Shown here piece by piece: positions 6,905 through 15,044 of a stretch of DNA of 43,451 bases. The stretch comes from Paenibacillaceae bacterium (GTDB lineage: Bacteria; Bacillota; Clostridia; Lachnospirales; Lachnospiraceae). The translations under genes were made by a program, and so were the position numbers. A model generated the notes under the pieces. The model saw only the letters and a program-made list of their open reading frames with translations, made no database searches and was not told where the DNA came from. How positions within the stretch are numbered: position 1 is the first letter of the stretch; each line of letters starts with the position of its first letter. The stretch spans positions 1 through 43,451 of the forward strand of contig SVDS01000024.1 of the NCBI GenBank assembly GCA_015057715.1, in the 5' to 3' direction.

Positions 6905-7916
6905 TGAAAACCCTCCCTGAAAGTTTTGCGTATGGCTGTAACTGCTCTGTCAATTGTTCAAACTGCTCAAAGGTGAGAGACTGAGGACCATCAGATAATG
7001 CACAGGAAGGACAGGGATGAACTTCCACAATCAGACCGTCTGCACCAACTGCAAGAGCTGCCTTGGAGATGGGCTCAATGTAAGCACGTACACCAGTGGC
7101 ATGACTGGGATCCACAATAATTGGAAGATGGCTCTTAGACCGGATTACGGGAATTGCGCTGATATCCAGGGTGTTTCTGGTTGCAGTTTCATATGTGCGG
7201 ATTCCTCTTTCACAAAGAACAATATTGGGATTGCCTTCGGAAGCGATGTATTCTGCTGCATTTAACCACTCGTCAATGGTAGCGCAGAGACCTCTTTTTA
7301 AGAGAACAGGTATTCCTGCTTTTCCTGCTTCTTTTAAAAGCTCAAAATTCTGCATGTTTCTTGCACCGATCTGGATCATATCAACGTATTTTACAGCAGT
7401 TTCCAGTGCCCTTAAACTGGTCACCTCACAAACTACATTCAGTCCGGTCGCCTCTCTGGCTTCTTTCATGTATTGTAACCCTTCTTCTTCCAGACCCTGA
7501 AATGCGTAGGGGGAAGTTCTTGGCTTGTAAGCGCCTCCTCTTAAGAACTGTGCTCCGGCTTTTTTTACTGCATAGGCTGTTTCTAAAAGCATGTCATGGT
7601 TTTCAATGGCACAGGGACCGGCCATCATGGTAAGGTATCCTGGGCCGATTTTGGCATTGCCCACTGTAATAACAGAATCTTCCGGGTGAAACTTCTTATT
7701 TACTACCTTGTAGCTTTCAGTTACCGCAACGATTTTATCCACACCATCCATCATCTCAATATTAGCACCCTGAAGTTTCGTTTTATCCCCTACAACACCT
7801 ACTATGGTTACTTCCGTTCCCTCTGATAAATGAGCGGTCAGGCCGTTGGATTCAATTAAGTGCTTTACTTTACTTACAGCCTCTGCAGAAGCGTTTGGTT
7901 TCATAATAATAATCAT
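6897..7916 (-). CDS. aroF: 3-deoxy-7-phosphoheptulonate (DAHP) synthase, type I-beta with N-terminal ferredoxin-like domain
   Basis: A 339-residue protein of the Thermotoga/Bacillus type. An N-terminal regulatory ferredoxin-like domain (MIIIMKPNASAEAVSKV through about residue 70) is followed by a TIM-barrel with TMMAGPCAIENHDMLLETA, FLRGGAYKPRTSPYAFQG, LLKRGLCATIDEWLNAAEYI, ERGIRTYE and the metal/substrate region IVDPSHATGVR. It condenses PEP and erythrose-4-phosphate, the first step of the shikimate pathway. It is the first gene of the operon behind a near-consensus promoter with a short leader. I see no T-box or attenuator, so control probably comes from allostery (N-terminal domain) or a repressor. 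ATG at 7904 is an alternative start; 7916 fits the AGAGG upstream better. Confidence 0.96.
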   Translation of the reverse strand: MIIIMKPNASAEAVSKVKHLIESNGLTAHLSEGTEVTIVGVVGDKTKLQGANIEMMDGVDKIVAVTESYKVVNKKFHPEDSVITVGNAKIGPGYLTMMAGPCAIENHDMLLETAYAVKKAGAQFLRGGAYKPRTSPYAFQGLEEEGLQYMKEAREATGLNVVCEVTSLRALETAVKYVDMIQIGARNMQNFELLKEAGKAGIPVLLKRGLCATIDEWLNAAEYIASEGNPNIVLCERGIRTYETATRNTLDISAIPVIRSKSHLPIIVDPSHATGVRAYIEPISKAALAVGADGLIVEVHPCPSCALSDGPQSLTFEQFEQLTEQLQPYAKLSGRVFNE

Positions 7917-7954
7917 ATCTCTTTTTCCTCTTTTCTTACAAATGATTAATCCCC

Positions 7955-7983
7955 ATTGTAATGGATAGCGGGGAAGTTGTCAA
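7955..7983 (-). promoter_or_regulatory. promoter of the aroF-tyrA-aroA operon
   Basis: On the minus strand TTGACA (7978-7983), a 17-bp spacer, then TACAAT (7955-7960), about 40 nt before the aroF start. Just upstream of the -35 lies a perfect inverted repeat TTAAAGT-n5-ACTTTAA (7996-8002/8008-8014) that could bind a regulator. Confidence 0.8.
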
Positions 7984-8321
7984 CGCTTTTATACGTTAAA
8001 GTTTAACACTTTAAAGTAAATTATAAATTTAAAACTTTTCAGAGGCAATTTTGCACAGTGAAAAAGGGAAAGATCTAGACTTATTATGATAAATTTTCCT
8101 AAAGATTATAAGAATTATTAGTGAAGCCGTCAAAAATGATCTCCTGATACACGGACATTTTTGTATAAATAGCAGTTATGTGCCAGGATGATGTTAAAAA
8201 AAGTTACATCAAACATGGAAAATGCCATGTAATTTTCCAAGGAAATCATTTAATATAGAGATAAAACAAATCAAAAATGTATTTATTTGTGCACCAACTG
8301 GGGCAGTAAAGGGATAAGACA
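7984..8321. promoter_or_regulatory. divergent control region between aro operon and the 8322 cassette, with stacked GGAAAA/TTTTCC palindromes
   Basis: This gene-free, A+T-rich stretch holds the inverted repeat TTAAAGT-n5-ACTTTAA (7996-8014). Nearer the plus-strand gene it holds GGAAAAT (8217-8223) paired with ATTTTCC (8232-8238), the latter paired again with GGAAA at 8241-8245; an overlapping CATGG/CCATG repeat lies at 8214-8229. A possible -10 TAATAT sits at 8251-8256 with no good -35, which would fit an activator-dependent promoter. No ORF with a ribosome binding site is seen here. Confidence 0.5.
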
Positions 8322-10760
8322 ATGGAAAAATTACAATTGAACAGAACCGGGTTCCTTACGAATTACCTGATATCCGGTCCAAAAGTAACGGATTTTATCA
8401 ATCATGAATCAGATGACAACCAGCTGCGTTATGAACAGCATTTAAGATCCCTCGTGGCGGACTTAAACAAATCCTGCCCCGAAGGCCCGGTTATTCTTGG
8501 AGAAAACAGCAGACTTCAGATGCCGTGGAAGTATTATTATCATTATGGAAACTGGTTTGTAGATGAAAGCACATTCTATTCTACATTGCAGAAGGTAGAA
8601 CTGGATGCAGTGACAGGAATCGAAGTAGAGGAAGACATCGCAGTGAATGCTGTTGTATGGTCTTATGCGGCAGTCGATGTGTGGTGCAATGGAAAACTTG
8701 TGTGCCGTATGGATACGCCGGTTTATAAGCCCATTAAAAAGAAACAGATGGAGCTTCAGCTGAAAAAGGGAATCAATGAAATTTATATCAGTCTGCAGAC
8801 ACTTGGTGTCAGGGATACGAGAACATTGTTCGGCATTCAGATCATGGATCACATGGAAGAGATCTGTGTTGTACTGCCGGATGAGAAGCATACCGATGAA
8901 CTGGTACAGATTGAGAACTGGCTTGGTTCCATCTCCATTAAGAATTCCATCATGACGTTCAAAGAAGGTGCGCCGAAAGGAGCCTCTTTGGCCTACGACA
9001 GCCAAAGCCCTGATTTTGCACAGGTGAAAAGCCGTAAGGAATGGCAGGAGATCAGCGGTAAAAATCAGGTGAAGCTTGAGGACGAAAAGCCAGGTGTTAT
9101 TTTAGTAAGTGTAAAAAGTGACCATGGAGTCCTTACCAGAAAAGTGGAGAATATCCTGGCTCAGAGACCGGAATATGGAAAAGACAAGGACTTTGAGGAG
9201 AACAAAAAGGCCATTTTCCATAGAATTGCAGAAGCAGAAAGTCTGTCCAGAGGTGATAAATTCGGATTTTCCATCTCCAATATCCTTGCGAGAAAAGCCC
9301 TTGGAATGGACAGCGGGCGGGATGTAGAACTTCTTTATGAGACTCTGGATCAGATTGAAAGCAGATATGACTGCTCTGATTTTCTGGTGTGTGGCATGGT
9401 CCGATATCTAAAAAATTATCCAGTCAGTGAGAATCTGGCAAAACGTGCAAAAGAGGTTCTTTTAAACTGGCGTTACTGGATGGATCAAAAAGGATCTGAC
9501 GCCATGTGCTTCTGGAGCGAAAACCATTCTCTTATGTTTTATACCTGTGCCATGAACGCAGGAGAGATGTATCCGGATGAGTATTTCCCACGGGCAGACA
9601 TGACCGGCAGAGAGCTTTTTAAAATCGGAAGAGCTAAAGTTGAAGCATGGCTGGCGGATGTGGAGGAACATGGATTTGAAGAATTCTTAAGTACAGTTTA
9701 TATGTGCGTTACGTTTGCAGCACTGTTAAATGTAATTGATTTTTCAGAGGAAGCCATTTCAAAAAGGGCAGTCAAGATTACCGATAAACTTCTTGAAATG
9801 CTGTGCCTCCATACCTATGACGGTGTTGTAATTGCCCCTATGGGACGAGTATACAGGGAAGTGATTCATCCCTTTGAGCAGGGAGCCCAGGCACTGATGA
9901 ATTTGATCAATCCTGACGTCCCTTATTCCTACGGAGAAGGTTGGCTGGGCTTTTATTCATGCAGCAGCTATCAACTTCCAGAAGGACTAAAAGAACTAAT
10001 GGAGCGCCCGGCAGATATGGATTATTCCACTGGAAATGCTCTGATAAGGCTGAAGAAAACATCAGAGTACTGTATGACCTCCGTTCAGTCTCCAAGACCG
10101 GATCCGGAATTTAAACGCTGGAAAAACCTGACTCTGGATCCGGATGCTGATACCACAACCTGTGAATACACCAAGTCGCTGAACGAACGGTTCCATGGAA
10201 CCACCTGCTTTGAGCCTGGCGTATATGGTTATCAGCAGCACATGTGGTATGCTGCCCTTGATATGGAGACAGATATCTTTACAAACCACCCGGGAGGAAC
10301 CTGCGATTCCTGTTCCATGAGACCGGGATACTGGTTCGGTAATGGAGTAATGCCTGCACTGGTTCAGGAAGGAAATTTACTGGGTGCTGTTTATCATATA
10401 CCGGAGGAGCATCCCATTCATTTCACCCATGCTTATTTTCCTTCACCAAAGTTTTCTGAAACGAAAATCTCCGGCAATTGGCTTTTCGGCAGTAAGGCAG
10501 GGGGCTTTGTGGCTCTTTGGTGCAGCAGTACGTTGGAACCCGTGGATGACCAACTGTTTGAATGCGAATTCCGTACCTATGGGGATGATATTGCCTACTT
10601 CTGCGTATGTGCAGGAAATCAGGAATTTAAATCCCTTGCTGAGTTTTCAGCCTATGTAGAAAATCTCCGGCCGGTATTTGATGTAAAGCAACGTATTTTA
10701 ACAGCGGGACCGTTGAAAGTGGGATTTACAGATAACAATGACAAAACTCAGTATATTTAG
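8322..10760 (+). CDS. uncharacterised 812-residue protein, probable (alpha/alpha)-toroid carbohydrate-active-type enzyme
   Basis: I do not recognise a named family with certainty. The protein has no signal peptide, so it is predicted cytoplasmic. Residues about 80-180 read as a beta-sandwich (VVWSYAAVDVWCNGKLVCRM, KKGINEIYISLQ). Residues about 290-530 are helical with aromatic/acidic conserved-looking blocks: FWSENHSLMFYTCAMNAGEM (397-416), STVYMCVTFAALLNVIDF and APMGRVYREVIHP. The C-terminal part (about 600-812) is again beta-rich, with NHPGGTCDSCSMRPGYWFGN. This architecture, beta domain then helical toroid then beta domain, resembles polysaccharide lyase/heparinase-like or glycoside-processing enzymes, and related sequences with a W(S/T)ENH block occur in other soil and gut bacteria. 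It is the first gene of a three-gene cassette and overlaps the next gene by 23 nt. Function is inferred only loosely: intracellular sugar or glycoside processing. Confidence 0.6.
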   Translation: MEKLQLNRTGFLTNYLISGPKVTDFINHESDDNQLRYEQHLRSLVADLNKSCPEGPVILGENSRLQMPWKYYYHYGNWFVDESTFYSTLQKVELDAVTGIEVEEDIAVNAVVWSYAAVDVWCNGKLVCRMDTPVYKPIKKKQMELQLKKGINEIYISLQTLGVRDTRTLFGIQIMDHMEEICVVLPDEKHTDELVQIENWLGSISIKNSIMTFKEGAPKGASLAYDSQSPDFAQVKSRKEWQEISGKNQVKLEDEKPGVILVSVKSDHGVLTRKVENILAQRPEYGKDKDFEENKKAIFHRIAEAESLSRGDKFGFSISNILARKALGMDSGRDVELLYETLDQIESRYDCSDFLVCGMVRYLKNYPVSENLAKRAKEVLLNWRYWMDQKGSDAMCFWSENHSLMFYTCAMNAGEMYPDEYFPRADMTGRELFKIGRAKVEAWLADVEEHGFEEFLSTVYMCVTFAALLNVIDFSEEAISKRAVKITDKLLEMLCLHTYDGVVIAPMGRVYREVIHPFEQGAQALMNLINPDVPYSYGEGWLGFYSCSSYQLPEGLKELMERPADMDYSTGNALIRLKKTSEYCMTSVQSPRPDPEFKRWKNLTLDPDADTTTCEYTKSLNERFHGTTCFEPGVYGYQQHMWYAALDMETDIFTNHPGGTCDSCSMRPGYWFGNGVMPALVQEGNLLGAVYHIPEEHPIHFTHAYFPSPKFSETKISGNWLFGSKAGGFVALWCSSTLEPVDDQLFECEFRTYGDDIAYFCVCAGNQEFKSLAEFSAYVENLRPVFDVKQRILTAGPLKVGFTDNNDKTQYI

Positions 10761-11802
10761 TAAAGATACTCAGGCAGCGGTGGAACTTTTTGCCGCTGCC
10801 TATGAGAGTAATGAATATTTTAAGAGAAATTACAGCAGATGCCGGGAACTTATGCTGGTGGAAAAAGATCCCGAGGGGGCAGCGCAAGCCGTGATGTTTG
10901 GAATCAGACATGCCAGATTCCTTCATTTGGATGATTTTTTACTTCCGGTTATTTACATTGACTGGATGTTACCGGAACTGGTACATGAATTAGAAAAGCA
11001 GGCCATACCGGAAGCTGTTATCCGGGATTCATTTAAAGATGTTGAAATCTGGATTCAGTCCTATCGCAAATATCACAAGGGTCAGGTGGGACTTAACCGG
11101 ATTGAGTGGGTATTCCGCTCCCTTGTTGGAAAAGTACGAAGATTCGGCAGCCTGCAATTTGAGGAAGTTACTTATGAATTCCCGTTTCTGATTTTTGAAA
11201 ACAGACAATCCGGTGAGTTTCAGGCATTGGCATGTCCGGATCTGATGATTGACCAGGACGGATATATCTCTGGTACAAATGGAAGGAGTGTGAACTGTGA
11301 AATAAAAACTTACCTGGATTTTGGAGAAAGAGCTTTGACTGGATATAGGGTGGATTTAGAATCAGGAACTGTAAAGATGGAGACCCCTGTTTTGTTAAAT
11401 CCAACGGAATGGGAGCTTAAGCTTGCACCGGGAGAGAAGGCGGTTGCTGTTCATATTCCGGAAGGTTCTGATTTATCCACCGACAGCATTGACTTCTCTT
11501 TTCATACTGCAAAGAACTATTATGAAAATCAGATTCTTGTCTGCGACAGCTGGCTACTGGATCCCCATCTTAAGCACATCCTGCCTGAGACCAGTAAAAT
11601 CATAAGCTTTATGAATCGATTTCATAAAATGCCTGTACTGACTGGGCAGCCGCAGATACTGGAGCGGGTTATGGGCTTTGATTTTACCATGGAAGCACTG
11701 GAACAATTTTCCTGCACTACTTCGCTGCAGACCTCATTAAAGAAGTATCTTTTAGATGGAAATGAGATGTTTACAACAGCAGGTTTTATGCTATGGAGAT
11801 AA
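10738..11802 (+). CDS. GNAT_C-type acyltransferase-domain protein
   Basis: A 354-residue protein with two parts. An N-terminal helical domain spans about 1-140. A C-terminal region contains HIPEGSDLSTDSIDFSFHTA and the block LVCDSWLLDPHLKHILPETS followed by IISFMNRF, close to the pattern C-x-SWLLDP-x-L...LP-x-(D/T)SNI-x-x-F-x-x-RF that I associate with the GNAT_C acyltransferase-like family (PF18164). Its acyl donor and acceptor are not known. The ATG lies 23 nt inside the end of the preceding gene and the next gene starts 22 nt after its stop, so the three genes are almost certainly co-translated. The tight coupling suggests that it acts on the same substrate, perhaps as a small-molecule or sugar acyltransferase. 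The role is inference. Confidence 0.65.
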   Translation: MTKLSIFSKDTQAAVELFAAAYESNEYFKRNYSRCRELMLVEKDPEGAAQAVMFGIRHARFLHLDDFLLPVIYIDWMLPELVHELEKQAIPEAVIRDSFKDVEIWIQSYRKYHKGQVGLNRIEWVFRSLVGKVRRFGSLQFEEVTYEFPFLIFENRQSGEFQALACPDLMIDQDGYISGTNGRSVNCEIKTYLDFGERALTGYRVDLESGTVKMETPVLLNPTEWELKLAPGEKAVAVHIPEGSDLSTDSIDFSFHTAKNYYENQILVCDSWLLDPHLKHILPETSKIISFMNRFHKMPVLTGQPQILERVMGFDFTMEALEQFSCTTSLQTSLKKYLLDGNEMFTTAGFMLWR

Positions 11803-11824
11803 CAACCGAGAGGAGTACAGGATT

Positions 11825-12745
11825 ATGACAGGATTTTATGCCGGGCTGGATGTGGGAGGAACCAATGGACGTCTTAAAGTCTGCGATCCCGCAGGTAACG
11901 TATTGGGGGAATTTACAGCACCTGGCTGCAGCCTCAATACAGATGGAGCTGAAAAAAGCAGGCTGCGTTACCGGGAACTGGTAATTCCAGCTTTGAACCA
12001 GCTGAATCTGGATTCTGGCAGCTGCCTGGGAATCTGTGTGGCAGCAAGCGGAATTGATTTTCCGCCCCATGAACGTGATTGCAGATCCTTTTTTGAAGAA
12101 ATGGGATTTTTGCCTGACAAACTGAAGGTAATCAATGACTGCGAAGTATTTCTTTATCTGACGGAAACGCCGGCTCTTGTAATCATATCCGGCACCGGTT
12201 CCGTTTGCTTTGGAAGAGATCAGAACGGGGGCCTGCACAGAACAGGAGGCTTTAATCACATTGTAAGCGATGAAGGAAGCGGTTTTGATCTGGGGCTAAA
12301 GGTTTTAAGAGCGGTGGGCAATGATTTATCAGGGAGGGGCAGGAGCCCCATTCTTACCCCACTTTTTATCAAGTCAACCGGAATTGATACATTGGGAAAA
12401 ATAGATGATTATATCAATGCCAATCTTATGGAGAAATATCAGATCGCCAGATTTTCCCTTCTTGCCTATCAGGCGGCAGCATTAGGTGACGAGACTGCCA
12501 TAGAGATACACCGGGAATGTGCAGACGCCTTATGGGGGCTGATCCGTGATACAGCAGCTAAAATGGGTGCGGACGGATTTGAACTCTGGTACTGGGGAAG
12601 CCTTCTTGTGAAAAATGATATTTTGCGGGAGATGGTGGATAAAAAAGTAAACAAAGGACTGCCAGGGGTGAGGACTTCCATACCACGGATTACAGCACTT
12701 GATGCGGCACTCCAGGCAGCTGTGAAATTGCATCACATACCCTGA
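11825..12745 (+). CDS. BadF/BadG/BcrA-type ATPase, N-acetylglucosamine-kinase-like sugar kinase
   Basis: A 306-residue member of the ASKHA fold. It has phosphate-1 motif YAGLDVGGTNGRLKV (residues about 5-19), phosphate-2 region VINDCEVFLY followed by VIISGTGSVCFG, and the GGFNHIVSDEGSGFDLG block typical of N-acetylglucosamine kinases of family PF01869. It probably phosphorylates an amino sugar or a similar hexose in the cytoplasm, possibly a product of the first gene of the cassette. The start at 11825 is chosen because GAGAGGAG lies about 10 nt upstream; longer in-frame starts lie inside the previous gene. It is followed by a strong terminator. Kinase family membership is fairly secure; the substrate is not known. 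Confidence 0.8.
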   Translation: MTGFYAGLDVGGTNGRLKVCDPAGNVLGEFTAPGCSLNTDGAEKSRLRYRELVIPALNQLNLDSGSCLGICVAASGIDFPPHERDCRSFFEEMGFLPDKLKVINDCEVFLYLTETPALVIISGTGSVCFGRDQNGGLHRTGGFNHIVSDEGSGFDLGLKVLRAVGNDLSGRGRSPILTPLFIKSTGIDTLGKIDDYINANLMEKYQIARFSLLAYQAAALGDETAIEIHRECADALWGLIRDTAAKMGADGFELWYWGSLLVKNDILREMVDKKVNKGLPGVRTSIPRITALDAALQAAVKLHHIP

Positions 12746-12790
12746 AAAATCGGATTTTGGTTTAAATACAATATTTATAGGTAAATATGG

Positions 12791-12822
12791 GAAAAGAAGA
12801 GGGCGGCGCCCTCTTTTCTTTT
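12791..12822 (+). terminator. intrinsic terminator of the 8322-12745 cassette
   Basis: Long near-perfect hairpin with GAAAAGAAGAGGGC paired to GCCCTCTTTTCTTT around a 3-nt loop, ending in T-rich sequence. Confidence 0.9.
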
Positions 12823-12874
12823 ATCAAAATATAGAAAAATGTCGAAAAATATTTGTGCAAATTGTACCTTTTAC

Positions 12875-12903
12875 TTGCAATTATAAGACATTTTTAGTAA
12901 AAT
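12875..12903 (+). promoter_or_regulatory. promoter of the EF-G-like gene
   Basis: TTGCAA (12875-12880), 17-bp spacer, TAAAAT (12898-12903), about 40 nt before the start codon. Confidence 0.6.
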
Positions 12904-12941
12904 ATTGTTATAGACTTAAATACCGAACAGGAGGAATGCTT

Positions 12942-15044
12942 ATGAACGTGTATGGAACCAAACAAATCCGTAACGTCGCCTTACTTGGGCACGGGGGCGC
13001 CGGTAAAACTACCCTTGCTGAAGCAATGGCGTTAGTGACCGGAGCCATCAGCAGAATGGGAAAAGTTACCGATGGCAATACCATCAGCGATTATGACAAA
13101 GAAGAGATTAAGAGACAGTTCTCCATCTCCACTTCCCTGATTCCATTGGAATATGAAGGAGAGGATGGACCGATCAAGATTAATTTACTTGATACTCCCG
13201 GTTATTTTGATTTTGTTGGCGAGGTAGAAGAGGCAATCAGTGTAGCAGATGCTGCTGTTATCGTAGTAAACTGCAAGGCAGGAATTGAAGTTGGTACGTT
13301 AAAGGCATGGGAGCTCTGTGAAAAGTACAAGCTTCCCAGACTGTTTTTTGTAACCAATATGGATGATGATCAGGCCAGCTTTCGTGAACTTCTTTTAAAG
13401 CTGGAGAAAGAATTCGGAAGAAAGATAGCTCCGTTCCACCTTCCTATCAGAGAGAATGAAAAGTTCGTAGGATTTGTGAATGTGGTGAAAATGGCTGGGC
13501 GGCGCTTTACCGTTAACAGTGATTATGTGGAATGTGAGATTCCTGAGTATAGCCAGAAGAATTTAGGGATTGCCAGAGAAGCTTTGATGGAAGCAGTTGC
13601 TGAAATCAGTGAGGAATACATGGAACGGTATTTCTCAGGCGACGAATTTACCCTGGAAGAGATTTCTTCTGCACTTCGGGAACATGTAATACAGGGAAAT
13701 ATCGTTCCGGTCATGCTTGGTTCCGGAATTAATGCCCAGGGTGTAAAGATGGTTTTACAGGCAATTGACAAGTATTTTCCATCACCGGAGCGTTATGAAT
13801 GCATCGGTGTGGATGTTTCCACCGGAGAACGTTTTACTGCCAGATACAATGACAATGTATCGTTGTCAGCCCGGGTATTTAAGACAATCTTAGACCCATT
13901 TATCGGCAAGTATTCTCTGATGAAGATCTGTACAGGAACATTGAAAGCGGATTCAGCCATCTATAATGTAAATAAAGATACGGAAGAGAAAATCGGAAAA
14001 CTCTATGTGTTAAGGGGAAAAGATGCTATCGAAGTTCCGGAATTAAAAGCAGGAGATATTGGTGCAGTATCCAAATTGAACGTGACACAGACCGGTGATA
14101 CCATAGCCCTTCGCTCCGCACCTATTGTCTATCACAAGCCTGAGATATCCACTCCATATACGTATATGCGTTATAAGACGAAAACAAAAGGTGATGATGA
14201 TAAGGTTTCCAATGCACTGGCTAAATTAACGGAAGAGGACTGGACCTTAAAGGCAGTGAATGATACGGAGAACCGTCAGTCTCTTCTGTATGCAATCGGC
14301 GATCAGCAGCTGGAGGTAGTGGTCAGCAAGCTGTTAAACCGCTATAAGGTTGAAATTGAATTAAGCAAACCTAAATTTGCATTCCGTGAGACCATCCGCA
14401 AAAAAGTGGAGGTTCAGGGAAGATACAAGAAGCAGTCCGGCGGTCATGGTCAGTTTGGTGATGTAAAGATGACCTTTGAGCCTTCCGGTGATTTGGAGAC
14501 TCCCTATGTATTTGAAGAATCTGTATTTGGCGGAGCGGTTCCCAGGAATTATTTCCCGGCAGTGGAAAAGGGAATTGCAGAATGCGTCTTAAAAGGACCA
14601 TTAGCTGCTTATCCTGTTGTGGGAATCAAGGCAACGCTGACCGACGGATCCTACCATCCAGTGGATTCCTCTGAACTTGCTTTTAAGATGGCTGCAACCC
14701 TGGCATTTAAAAAAGGCTTTATGGATGCCAATCCGGTACTGCTGGAACCCATCGCTTCCTTAAAAGTCACTGTGCCGGATAAATTTACCGGCGATGTTAT
14801 GGGAGATTTAAACCGGAGAAGAGGACGTGTTCTTGGAATGAATTCCAATCATCATGGAAAACAGGTCATAGAGGCGGATATTCCAATGTCAGAGCTGTTT
14901 GGCTATAATACAGACCTTCGCTCTATGACAGGTGGTATTGGTACGTTTGAATATGAGTTCAGCCGTTATGAGCTGGCACCCGGAGATGTTCAGAAGAAAG
15001 AAGTTGAGGAACGGGCATCCAAGGTTGACCGTATGGAAGGATAA
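12942..15044 (+). CDS. elongation factor G-like GTPase (EF-G paralogue)
   Basis: A 700-residue translational GTPase with the full EF-G domain order. The G domain has P-loop GHGGAGKTT at about residue 15 and G3 DTPGYFDF. Domain II begins about residue 290, followed by domains III and IV (QSGGHGQFGDVKMTFEP) and V. The G4 motif, normally NKxD, reads TNMD in FFVTNMDDDQASF, so the Lys stacking on guanine is missing. This deviation and the overall sequence mark it as an EF-G2-type paralogue rather than the essential FusA of the str operon. Its role in translocation, recycling or stress is not established. The start at 12942 follows CAGGAGG; a second in-frame ATG lies 6 nt upstream. The gene is monocistronic, bounded by promoter and terminator. 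Confidence 0.9.
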   Translation: MNVYGTKQIRNVALLGHGGAGKTTLAEAMALVTGAISRMGKVTDGNTISDYDKEEIKRQFSISTSLIPLEYEGEDGPIKINLLDTPGYFDFVGEVEEAISVADAAVIVVNCKAGIEVGTLKAWELCEKYKLPRLFFVTNMDDDQASFRELLLKLEKEFGRKIAPFHLPIRENEKFVGFVNVVKMAGRRFTVNSDYVECEIPEYSQKNLGIAREALMEAVAEISEEYMERYFSGDEFTLEEISSALREHVIQGNIVPVMLGSGINAQGVKMVLQAIDKYFPSPERYECIGVDVSTGERFTARYNDNVSLSARVFKTILDPFIGKYSLMKICTGTLKADSAIYNVNKDTEEKIGKLYVLRGKDAIEVPELKAGDIGAVSKLNVTQTGDTIALRSAPIVYHKPEISTPYTYMRYKTKTKGDDDKVSNALAKLTEEDWTLKAVNDTENRQSLLYAIGDQQLEVVVSKLLNRYKVEIELSKPKFAFRETIRKKVEVQGRYKKQSGGHGQFGDVKMTFEPSGDLETPYVFEESVFGGAVPRNYFPAVEKGIAECVLKGPLAAYPVVGIKATLTDGSYHPVDSSELAFKMAATLAFKKGFMDANPVLLEPIASLKVTVPDKFTGDVMGDLNRRRGRVLGMNSNHHGKQVIEADIPMSELFGYNTDLRSMTGGIGTFEYEFSRYELAPGDVQKKEVEERASKVDRMEG

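Follow-up and report, generated by a model that had tools for sequence, protein, structure and literature searches.

The closest described systems to the protein discussed here are the polysaccharide lyases in which an (alpha/alpha) toroid is followed by an antiparallel beta-sheet (families PL8, PL12, PL15, PL17, PL21, PL33, PL35, PL39 and PL40). Excerpts of PMC12088678 give the catalytic residues as Asn192-Tyr246-His401 in PL35, Asn240-Tyr294-His424 in PL12, Asn336/His337-Tyr390-His555 in the PL15 exo-heparinase, Asn201-Tyr258-His413 in PL17, His202-Tyr257-His406 (with His as the first residue) in PL21 and Asn186-Tyr239-His405 in PL39; Asn238-Tyr291-His444 is listed for PL33 in part of PMC11848413, and Asn245-Tyr305-His485 for PL40 in part of PMC12915356. 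In these eight published sets the Asn-Tyr spacing is 53-60 residues and the Tyr-His spacing 130-180. The subject of this work is a three-gene cassette, A-B-C, in a window of 43,451 nucleotides (the whole stretch of DNA analysed, contig SVDS01000024.1 of assembly GCA_015057715.1), the first protein of which resembles these lyases in predicted fold and in residue spacing. The genome is Lacrimispora-type, has a size of 5.4 Mb, and its closest named relatives are Lacrimispora xylanisolvens (95-96% identity in protein A).

Three tightly coupled genes had been proposed in an initial annotation made from the letters alone, and the reading frames, the 23-nucleotide overlap and the 22-nucleotide gap were all confirmed:

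8322-10760, + strand: gene A, 812 residues; GH2-type beta-sandwich, (alpha/alpha) toroid and antiparallel beta-sheet, lyase-like
10738-11802, + strand: gene B, 354 residues; NAT_N plus GNAT_C acyltransferase, overlapping A by 23 nucleotides
11825-12745, + strand: gene C, 306 residues; BadF-type amino-sugar kinase, 22 nucleotides after B

The start of gene C was taken as the ATG behind gaggagtacaggatt; the longest open reading frame (ORF) begins earlier, at 11756. The reading that we prefer, with a probability of about 0.5, is that A-B-C is the catabolic section closing an operon for sugar uptake: an imported uronate-containing oligosaccharide would be cleaved in the cytosol by beta-elimination and an amino sugar then acylated and phosphorylated. 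Its parts differ in strength. Lyase chemistry of A, judged from fold, residues and context, is likely; the presence of an amino sugar in the substrate, suggested by the families of B and C, stands slightly below even odds; and the order A, then B, then C is one that we infer.

The full-length model of A was predicted with a pLDDT (predicted local distance difference test) of 91.7 and bears out the beta/helical-toroid/beta appearance described initially, which it refines to a lyase fold carrying an additional GH2-type domain at the N-terminus:

A residues 8-177 (8343-8852, + strand): GH2-type N-terminal beta-sandwich, from the predicted model
A residues 286-812 (9177-10757, + strand): toroid plus antiparallel beta-sheet, from the model (pLDDT 90.0) and Foldseek

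A Foldseek search with the whole 812-residue model listed mostly GH2 enzymes and four lyases. Because GH2 enzymes mostly filled the list, a separate model of the toroid part (pLDDT 90.0) was searched by itself, and all 11 matches at E <= 0.001 were toroid-plus-beta lyases. In the predicted model the (alpha/alpha) toroid is followed by the antiparallel beta-sheet as in those enzymes, and it is well supported that this part has the fold of glycosaminoglycan and alginate lyases. Matches titled ulvan lyase (PL40) were absent among the 50 listed per Foldseek list, which is no evidence against PL40. Identity to the lyases in the structural-search alignments was 6-11%, sequence searches of the PDB and Pfam gave nothing useful, and A differs from them in its extra GH2-type N-terminal domain, its lack of a signal peptide (N-terminus MEKLQLNRTGFL, judged by eye, in agreement with the initial annotation) and its ATP-binding cassette (ABC) importer loci. 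GH2 glycosidases share the beta-sandwich of residues 8-177 as an accessory domain only; unlike them, A has no GH2 Pfam match and no triosephosphate isomerase (TIM) barrel in its model.

Conserved residues were read from two alignments, one of 46 close relatives (the window plus 45 of 61 loci) and one of 14 sequences picked to span near and far relatives, down to 22% identity. The candidate active site consists of:

E400-N401-H402 (9519-9527, + strand): N401/H402, candidate carboxylate neutraliser; invariant in 46/46 and 14/14
Y460 (9699-9701, + strand): candidate catalytic Tyr; invariant; 59 residues past N401
H640 (10239-10241, + strand): candidate catalytic His of the beta-sheet; invariant; 180 residues past Y460; placed by sequence

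The FWSENH block, singled out earlier as conserved-looking, is indeed so: S399, E400, N401 and H402 are invariant in all 46 aligned homologues, and F397 and W398 are kept in at least 90%. The alignment of 14 near and far relatives has 36 invariant columns, including R348, D350, C351, D353, F354, E400, N401, H402, S457, Y460, R509, Q638 and H640, while H625 and H656 are invariant in the close relatives and lost in some far ones. The spacings N401-Y460 (59) and Y460-H640 (180) place an invariant Asn/His, Tyr and His at the distances of most toroid-plus-beta lyase families, as spacing in sequence and not as position in three dimensions. According to part of PMC12915356, Tyr305 and His485 of the PL40 enzyme Uly1040 are also 180 residues apart, and in an excerpt of PMC4765187 His202 of PL17 adjoins Asn201, as H402 adjoins N401 in A. 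Three observations from these partial sources count against a simple spacing rule: His precedes Tyr in PL8 and PL23 (PMC12088678), so that the residue order of PL8 differs from that of A; the PL15 alginate lyase has a different neutraliser (PMC12088678); and the base of PL17 is assigned differently in PMC12088678 and PMC4765187.

In a profile comparison with heparinase II/III proteins, N401-H402 of A lined up with an Asn-His pair and Y460 with the Tyr that is invariant in those proteins; H640 lay outside the alignment. The score of 30.8 (P 0.0092; hhalign probability 4.4%) is statistically weak; none of 60 column shuffles came above 24.4, however, and eight further profiles, a cleaned GH88 set among them, stayed between 13.6 and 22.4. 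In the 22 heparinase II/III proteins, Asn occupies the N401 register in 21, and the Asn-Tyr spacing is 50-58.

The initial statement that A fits no nameable family agrees with the library searches, in which no Pfam or NCBIfam model and no useful PDB sequence match was found. The 46 members gave only 10 scattered weak Pfam families (best E 0.0032, in one member). Heparinase II/III (PF07940/PF16889) did not match A, the 46 close relatives (for which the 10 weak families were listed) or six far relatives, and GH88/GH105 (PF07470) did not match A or its close relatives. With NCBIfam, 14 superfamily members yielded one chance-level match (E 0.077), and a PDB sequence search with A alone returned nothing at E <= 10. 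The 46-row profile gave eight PDB matches at E <= 10, the best at 0.059 (colicins, ClpC, designed and other proteins), and these were set aside. A may already carry a PL number in CAZy; the comparison covered Pfam, NCBIfam and the PDB, not CAZy's own models.

The best-surviving alternative is that A is a hydrolase of a new GH family built on the (alpha/alpha) toroid, with its acid/base drawn from invariant acidic residues, for example D350, D353 or E400. We regard this as unlikely: every toroid match at E <= 0.001 was a lyase, the N/H-Y-H pattern is retained across the superfamily, and a GH88 profile from a cleaned set, its members checked by similarity, scored 21.4 (P 0.098), no better than unrelated controls. 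A much stronger A-to-GH88 match obtained with the uncleaned set (P 2.7e-10) was rejected as most likely an artefact; the automatic GH88 set took the longest ORF per locus, and one of its loci, L157, also holds part of an A paralogue from the window's own genome. The intracellular sugar pathway proposed in the initial annotation is strengthened by the importer-linked operon described below, while its "releases" is, given the lyase fold, more likely beta-elimination than glycoside hydrolysis.

Relatives of A were found at 61 loci in the genome-contig collection. They occur in 9 of 150 genomes sampled from the family and, when the profile combined near and far relatives, in 7 of 398 genomes of the phylum, two of these being weak or confined to the N-terminal domain; both counts include the window's own genome. 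At E <= 1e-5, 199 plasmid records carry a relative, among them 123 from Rhizobium, 40 from Pseudosulfitobacter, 12 from Sinorhizobium and 3 from Haladaptatus, and the one annotated plasmid copy inspected was labelled a hypothetical protein. No relative was found in viral contigs.

At the 51 loci outside the Lacrimispora clade, A is accompanied by ABC permeases (43), solute-binding proteins (37), YesN-type regulators (39), YesM-type sensors (37), GH28 (20), GH38 (12), GH2 (12) and heparinase II/III (5), and by no GH88. The YesN, YesM, permease, binding-protein and GH2 labels are those of BLAST clusters named by eye, with one member of each confirmed by Pfam. Where the position of A could be assigned (49 loci), the same-strand gene immediately upstream of it encodes a permease in 35.

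Far relatives (22-31% identity, some with an N-terminal hydrophobic stretch) were read at ten loci: L122, L127-L130, L220-L223 and L228. This set leaves out the G051 matches, further G046 and G149 copies, the G380 match limited to the N-terminal domain and all but one annotated plasmid; L224, a weak match (E 8.5e-6), was excluded from the counts, and L229 was without annotation. A Pfam-confirmed GH88 gene adjoins the relative at seven of the ten (L122, L127-L130, L220 and the Rhizobium plasmid L228), and the L228 run also contains GH28 and ABC transporter genes. L122 belongs to the window's own genome (contig C17, 8244-11818), where a far paralogue of about 24% identity is directly followed by the GH88 gene, then by an AraC-like regulator and a binding protein, and is preceded by two ABC permeases (by eye). 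GH88 enzymes act on unsaturated uronyl ends of the kind made by lyases, and their presence beside the far relatives is for this reason the best contextual hint at lyase chemistry in A. The same gene content bears on a second alternative, in which this fold would serve a uronate C5-epimerase or some other enzyme that does not cleave, and B and C would work on another molecule. Bacterial uptake loci with GH28, GH38, GH2, heparinase and, in far relatives, GH88 fit the breakdown of oligosaccharides better than epimerisation, and we consider this alternative quite improbable.

The domain content of A varies among its relatives. Most of the N-terminal domain is absent in L222 and L223. L222 (6166-10317) contains tandem far relatives, both without the GH2-type domain and the first with an N-terminal hydrophobic stretch, next to oxidoreductase-like genes (neighbours by eye). 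In the spirochaete loci L036 and L070 (8010-11993) the A frame runs on into about 520 further C-terminal residues, which in L070 match DUF3604 weakly. In G127 (contig C6, 435042-437521) the gene is split into two overlapping ORFs.

The descriptions of B as GNAT_C-like and of C as GlcNAc-kinase-like (GlcNAc, N-acetylglucosamine) proved accurate. B exceeds the Pfam cut-offs for both of its domains, NAT_N (PF18082, 37.4 bits against 27.8, E 5.8e-9) and GNAT_C (PF18164, 109.7 bits against 22.8, E 1.5e-31); DUF5596 is an older name of GNAT_C. Its remote kin are the teicoplanin-type N-acyltransferases tcp24 and Dbv8, with the C-terminal region of which it aligns by a weak match (E 2e-4). H239-I-P of B falls on the His-Val-Pro of tcp24 and is kept in 13 of 13 aligned sequences, four of them from the trio clade. 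B has both domains and differs from these enzymes in its sugar-catabolic context, as against antibiotic synthesis; tcp24 acylates the glucosamine of teicoplanin. The closest full-length relative outside the genus (L113, 33%) lies between an FGGY kinase gene and a GH123 gene, while L116, another relative, is flanked by an APH-type kinase gene on one side and a Gfo/Idh gene on the other and has GH31 nearby. The Pfam scan of B neighbours covered 106 of 160. Of 29 B regions, 305 kb in total, five contain GH123, although only 18 of 150 family genomes have a GH123 match above cut-off; reciprocally, a B relative occurs in 1 of 30 GH123 loci with 1.5-kb flanks, itself one of those five. Since GH123 is a beta-N-acetylgalactosaminidase family, some B kin so keep company with N-acetylhexosamine genes, which were not seen in most of the 29 regions.

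C is above the cut-off for PF01869 and is a BadF-type relative of GlcNAc and N-acetylmuramic acid (MurNAc) kinases. Its residues 4-241 align with the MurNAc/GlcNAc kinase PDB 8zo3 at E 1.6e-28, and by eye its nucleotide and sugar stretches are kept, as are GTN, GTGS and DEGSG. Against the NCBIfam NagK equivalog NF046058 it reached 46.6 bits, below the cut-off of 370. Around a relative of 54% identity (G046, L202) no sugar operon can be recognised; one of 28% (L204) adjoins a SIS/GKRP-type gene, MurQ-like by eye, whereas C in the window has no such SIS-domain neighbour.

Conservation of the trio was followed through relatives of A. It is co-linear in nine of ten Lacrimispora-clade loci; in the tenth, L030, the contig ends within A. 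The 23-nucleotide A/B overlap is identical in all nine loci that reach that far, with A identity down to 79%. In L023 the kinase gene appears as two ORFs. Elsewhere no B or C relative lies near A at any of the 51 loci (BLASTP E <= 1e-4, ORFs of at least 80 residues, flanks of at most 8 kb, some contigs ending sooner). The expectation that the three genes would be found together in other genomes was thus half borne out, within the clade, and half contradicted outside it.

In L029 (L. celerecrescens 152B) eight genes run on one strand in the order response regulator, histidine kinase, binding protein, permease, permease, A, B, C. The regulator is AraC-type, and the importer is a solute-binding-protein ABC system. 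The EF-G-type gene that also follows the trio in the window lies further downstream of C, behind one opposite-strand gene, and the run is preceded by a reverse transcriptase gene (86-1105; PF00078, E 4.1e-22). As the trio ends this two-component and importer run in L029, the window probably holds a trimmed version of the eight-gene operon. The trio-bearing A sequences in the tree (the window, L027, L028 and L029) form one clade with support 98/100, L029 being its deepest branch. Its neighbours in the tree, at a fork with 86/99 support that is not one of the strongest, are Clostridium sp. AT4, chh4-2 and MCC353; in these, A lies behind genes for a binding protein and two permeases, and B and C are missing. 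The window and its near relatives have aro genes, not an importer, ahead of A. The original importer seems gone from the window's genome, judging by sequence, since the closest counterpart there of the L029 binding protein shares 49% identity with it, whereas A, B and C reach 63-79%. In L207, from the same family, DAHP synthase and the EF-G-type gene are adjacent without the trio. The simplest account is that an ancestral A operon with an importer gained B and C, and that the xylanisolvens/amygdalina line afterwards lost importer and sensor; the trio may alternatively have moved separately. The other loci do lack B and C, and in the window no importer gene adjoins A directly, which would suit an orphan lyase gene that has come to lie by chance next to two genes unrelated to it; such a coincidence is very unlikely in view of the identical overlap at such divergence, the single clade of four trio sequences and the joining to importer and regulator in its deepest branch.

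In the catabolic pathway that we prefer, a two-component system and ABC importer, seen as genes in L029, would bring in a uronate-containing oligosaccharide. Cytosolic A would clamp it between toroid and beta-sheet and cleave it by beta-elimination, with N401/H402 neutralising the uronate carboxylate and Y460 and H640 as acid/base, to give an unsaturated uronyl product and a free leaving sugar. If the latter is or carries an amino sugar, B would acylate the amine and C phosphorylate the sugar, which could then enter amino-sugar metabolism. A broader proposal is doubtful at this stage, though possible: that A is the founding member of a lyase family so far without a name (in Bacillota, Spirochaetota and rhizobial plasmids and, by plasmid matches only, in haloarchaea) whose main branch is intracellular with a GH2-type N-terminal domain, and that Lacrimispora uses it in a salvage route where the freed amino sugar is re-acylated by the GNAT_C enzyme and then phosphorylated.

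Fold and chemistry of this kind are already known; the A family, its GH2-type N-terminal domain, the importer-linked cytosolic setting and the link to a GNAT_C protein and kinase are without a name in the libraries searched. Literature searches for a salvage route of lyase, GNAT_C re-acylation and kinase turned up none, which does not establish its absence in print. Nothing was turned up for the motif strings of A, DUF5596 or teicoplanin acyltransferase terms, and nothing usable for NAT_N/GNAT_C, Lacrimispora/pectin or GH105/PL26. If A is a lyase, a large protein group (199 plasmid records alone) would gain testable chemistry and point to a use of acidic glycans, in bacteria of gut and root, that Pfam and NCBIfam annotation leaves invisible. 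A role in sugar catabolism would then also be added for NAT_N/GNAT_C proteins; their relatives of known structure, tcp24 and Dbv8 for example, are acyltransferases.

The flanks of the trio contain two further features:

12795-12817, + strand: intrinsic terminator, hairpin plus T-run; z -2.8, 2 of 200 shuffles folding as well
7986-8038, no strand assigned: AT-rich short inverted repeats, the densest block, between the aro operon and A

The single strong terminator annotated behind the trio is the first of these. The "stacked palindromic control region" annotated in front of it fared less well. Short inverted repeats are in excess there (13 against a shuffle mean of 4.4, a count reached by 1 of 100 shuffles), but the longest arm, 15 nucleotides, is matched by 27 of 100 shuffles, and the RNA folds of three stretches gave z of only -0.4 to -1.8. 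The block at 7986-8038 lies beside a site resembling a promoter of the divergent aro operon, and L029, which has a permease gene next to A, lacks this block upstream of A, so the repeats need not belong to A-B-C. Between 7500 and 13500, consensus matches to promoters (15, against 12.1 in shuffles) and terminators (4, against 5.2) were not above shuffles, and an Rfam scan of 7700-13000 gave no match at the gathering threshold.

The aro operon upstream of A lies on the opposite strand and encodes DAHP synthase, prephenate dehydrogenase and EPSP synthase; an EF-G-type gene lies downstream of the trio, and no importer genes directly adjoin A in the window. The window's genome contains 15 GH88 matches in total, one of which (contig C71, 8625-9701) lies about 1.3 kb from a GH123 match (10999-11988) on the opposite strand. 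Two metagenome-assembled genomes titled Paenibacillaceae bacterium, L022 (SIG288) and L030 (SIG287), carry an A protein 96% identical to that of the window, L022 with the whole trio, and look like mislabelled Lacrimispora.

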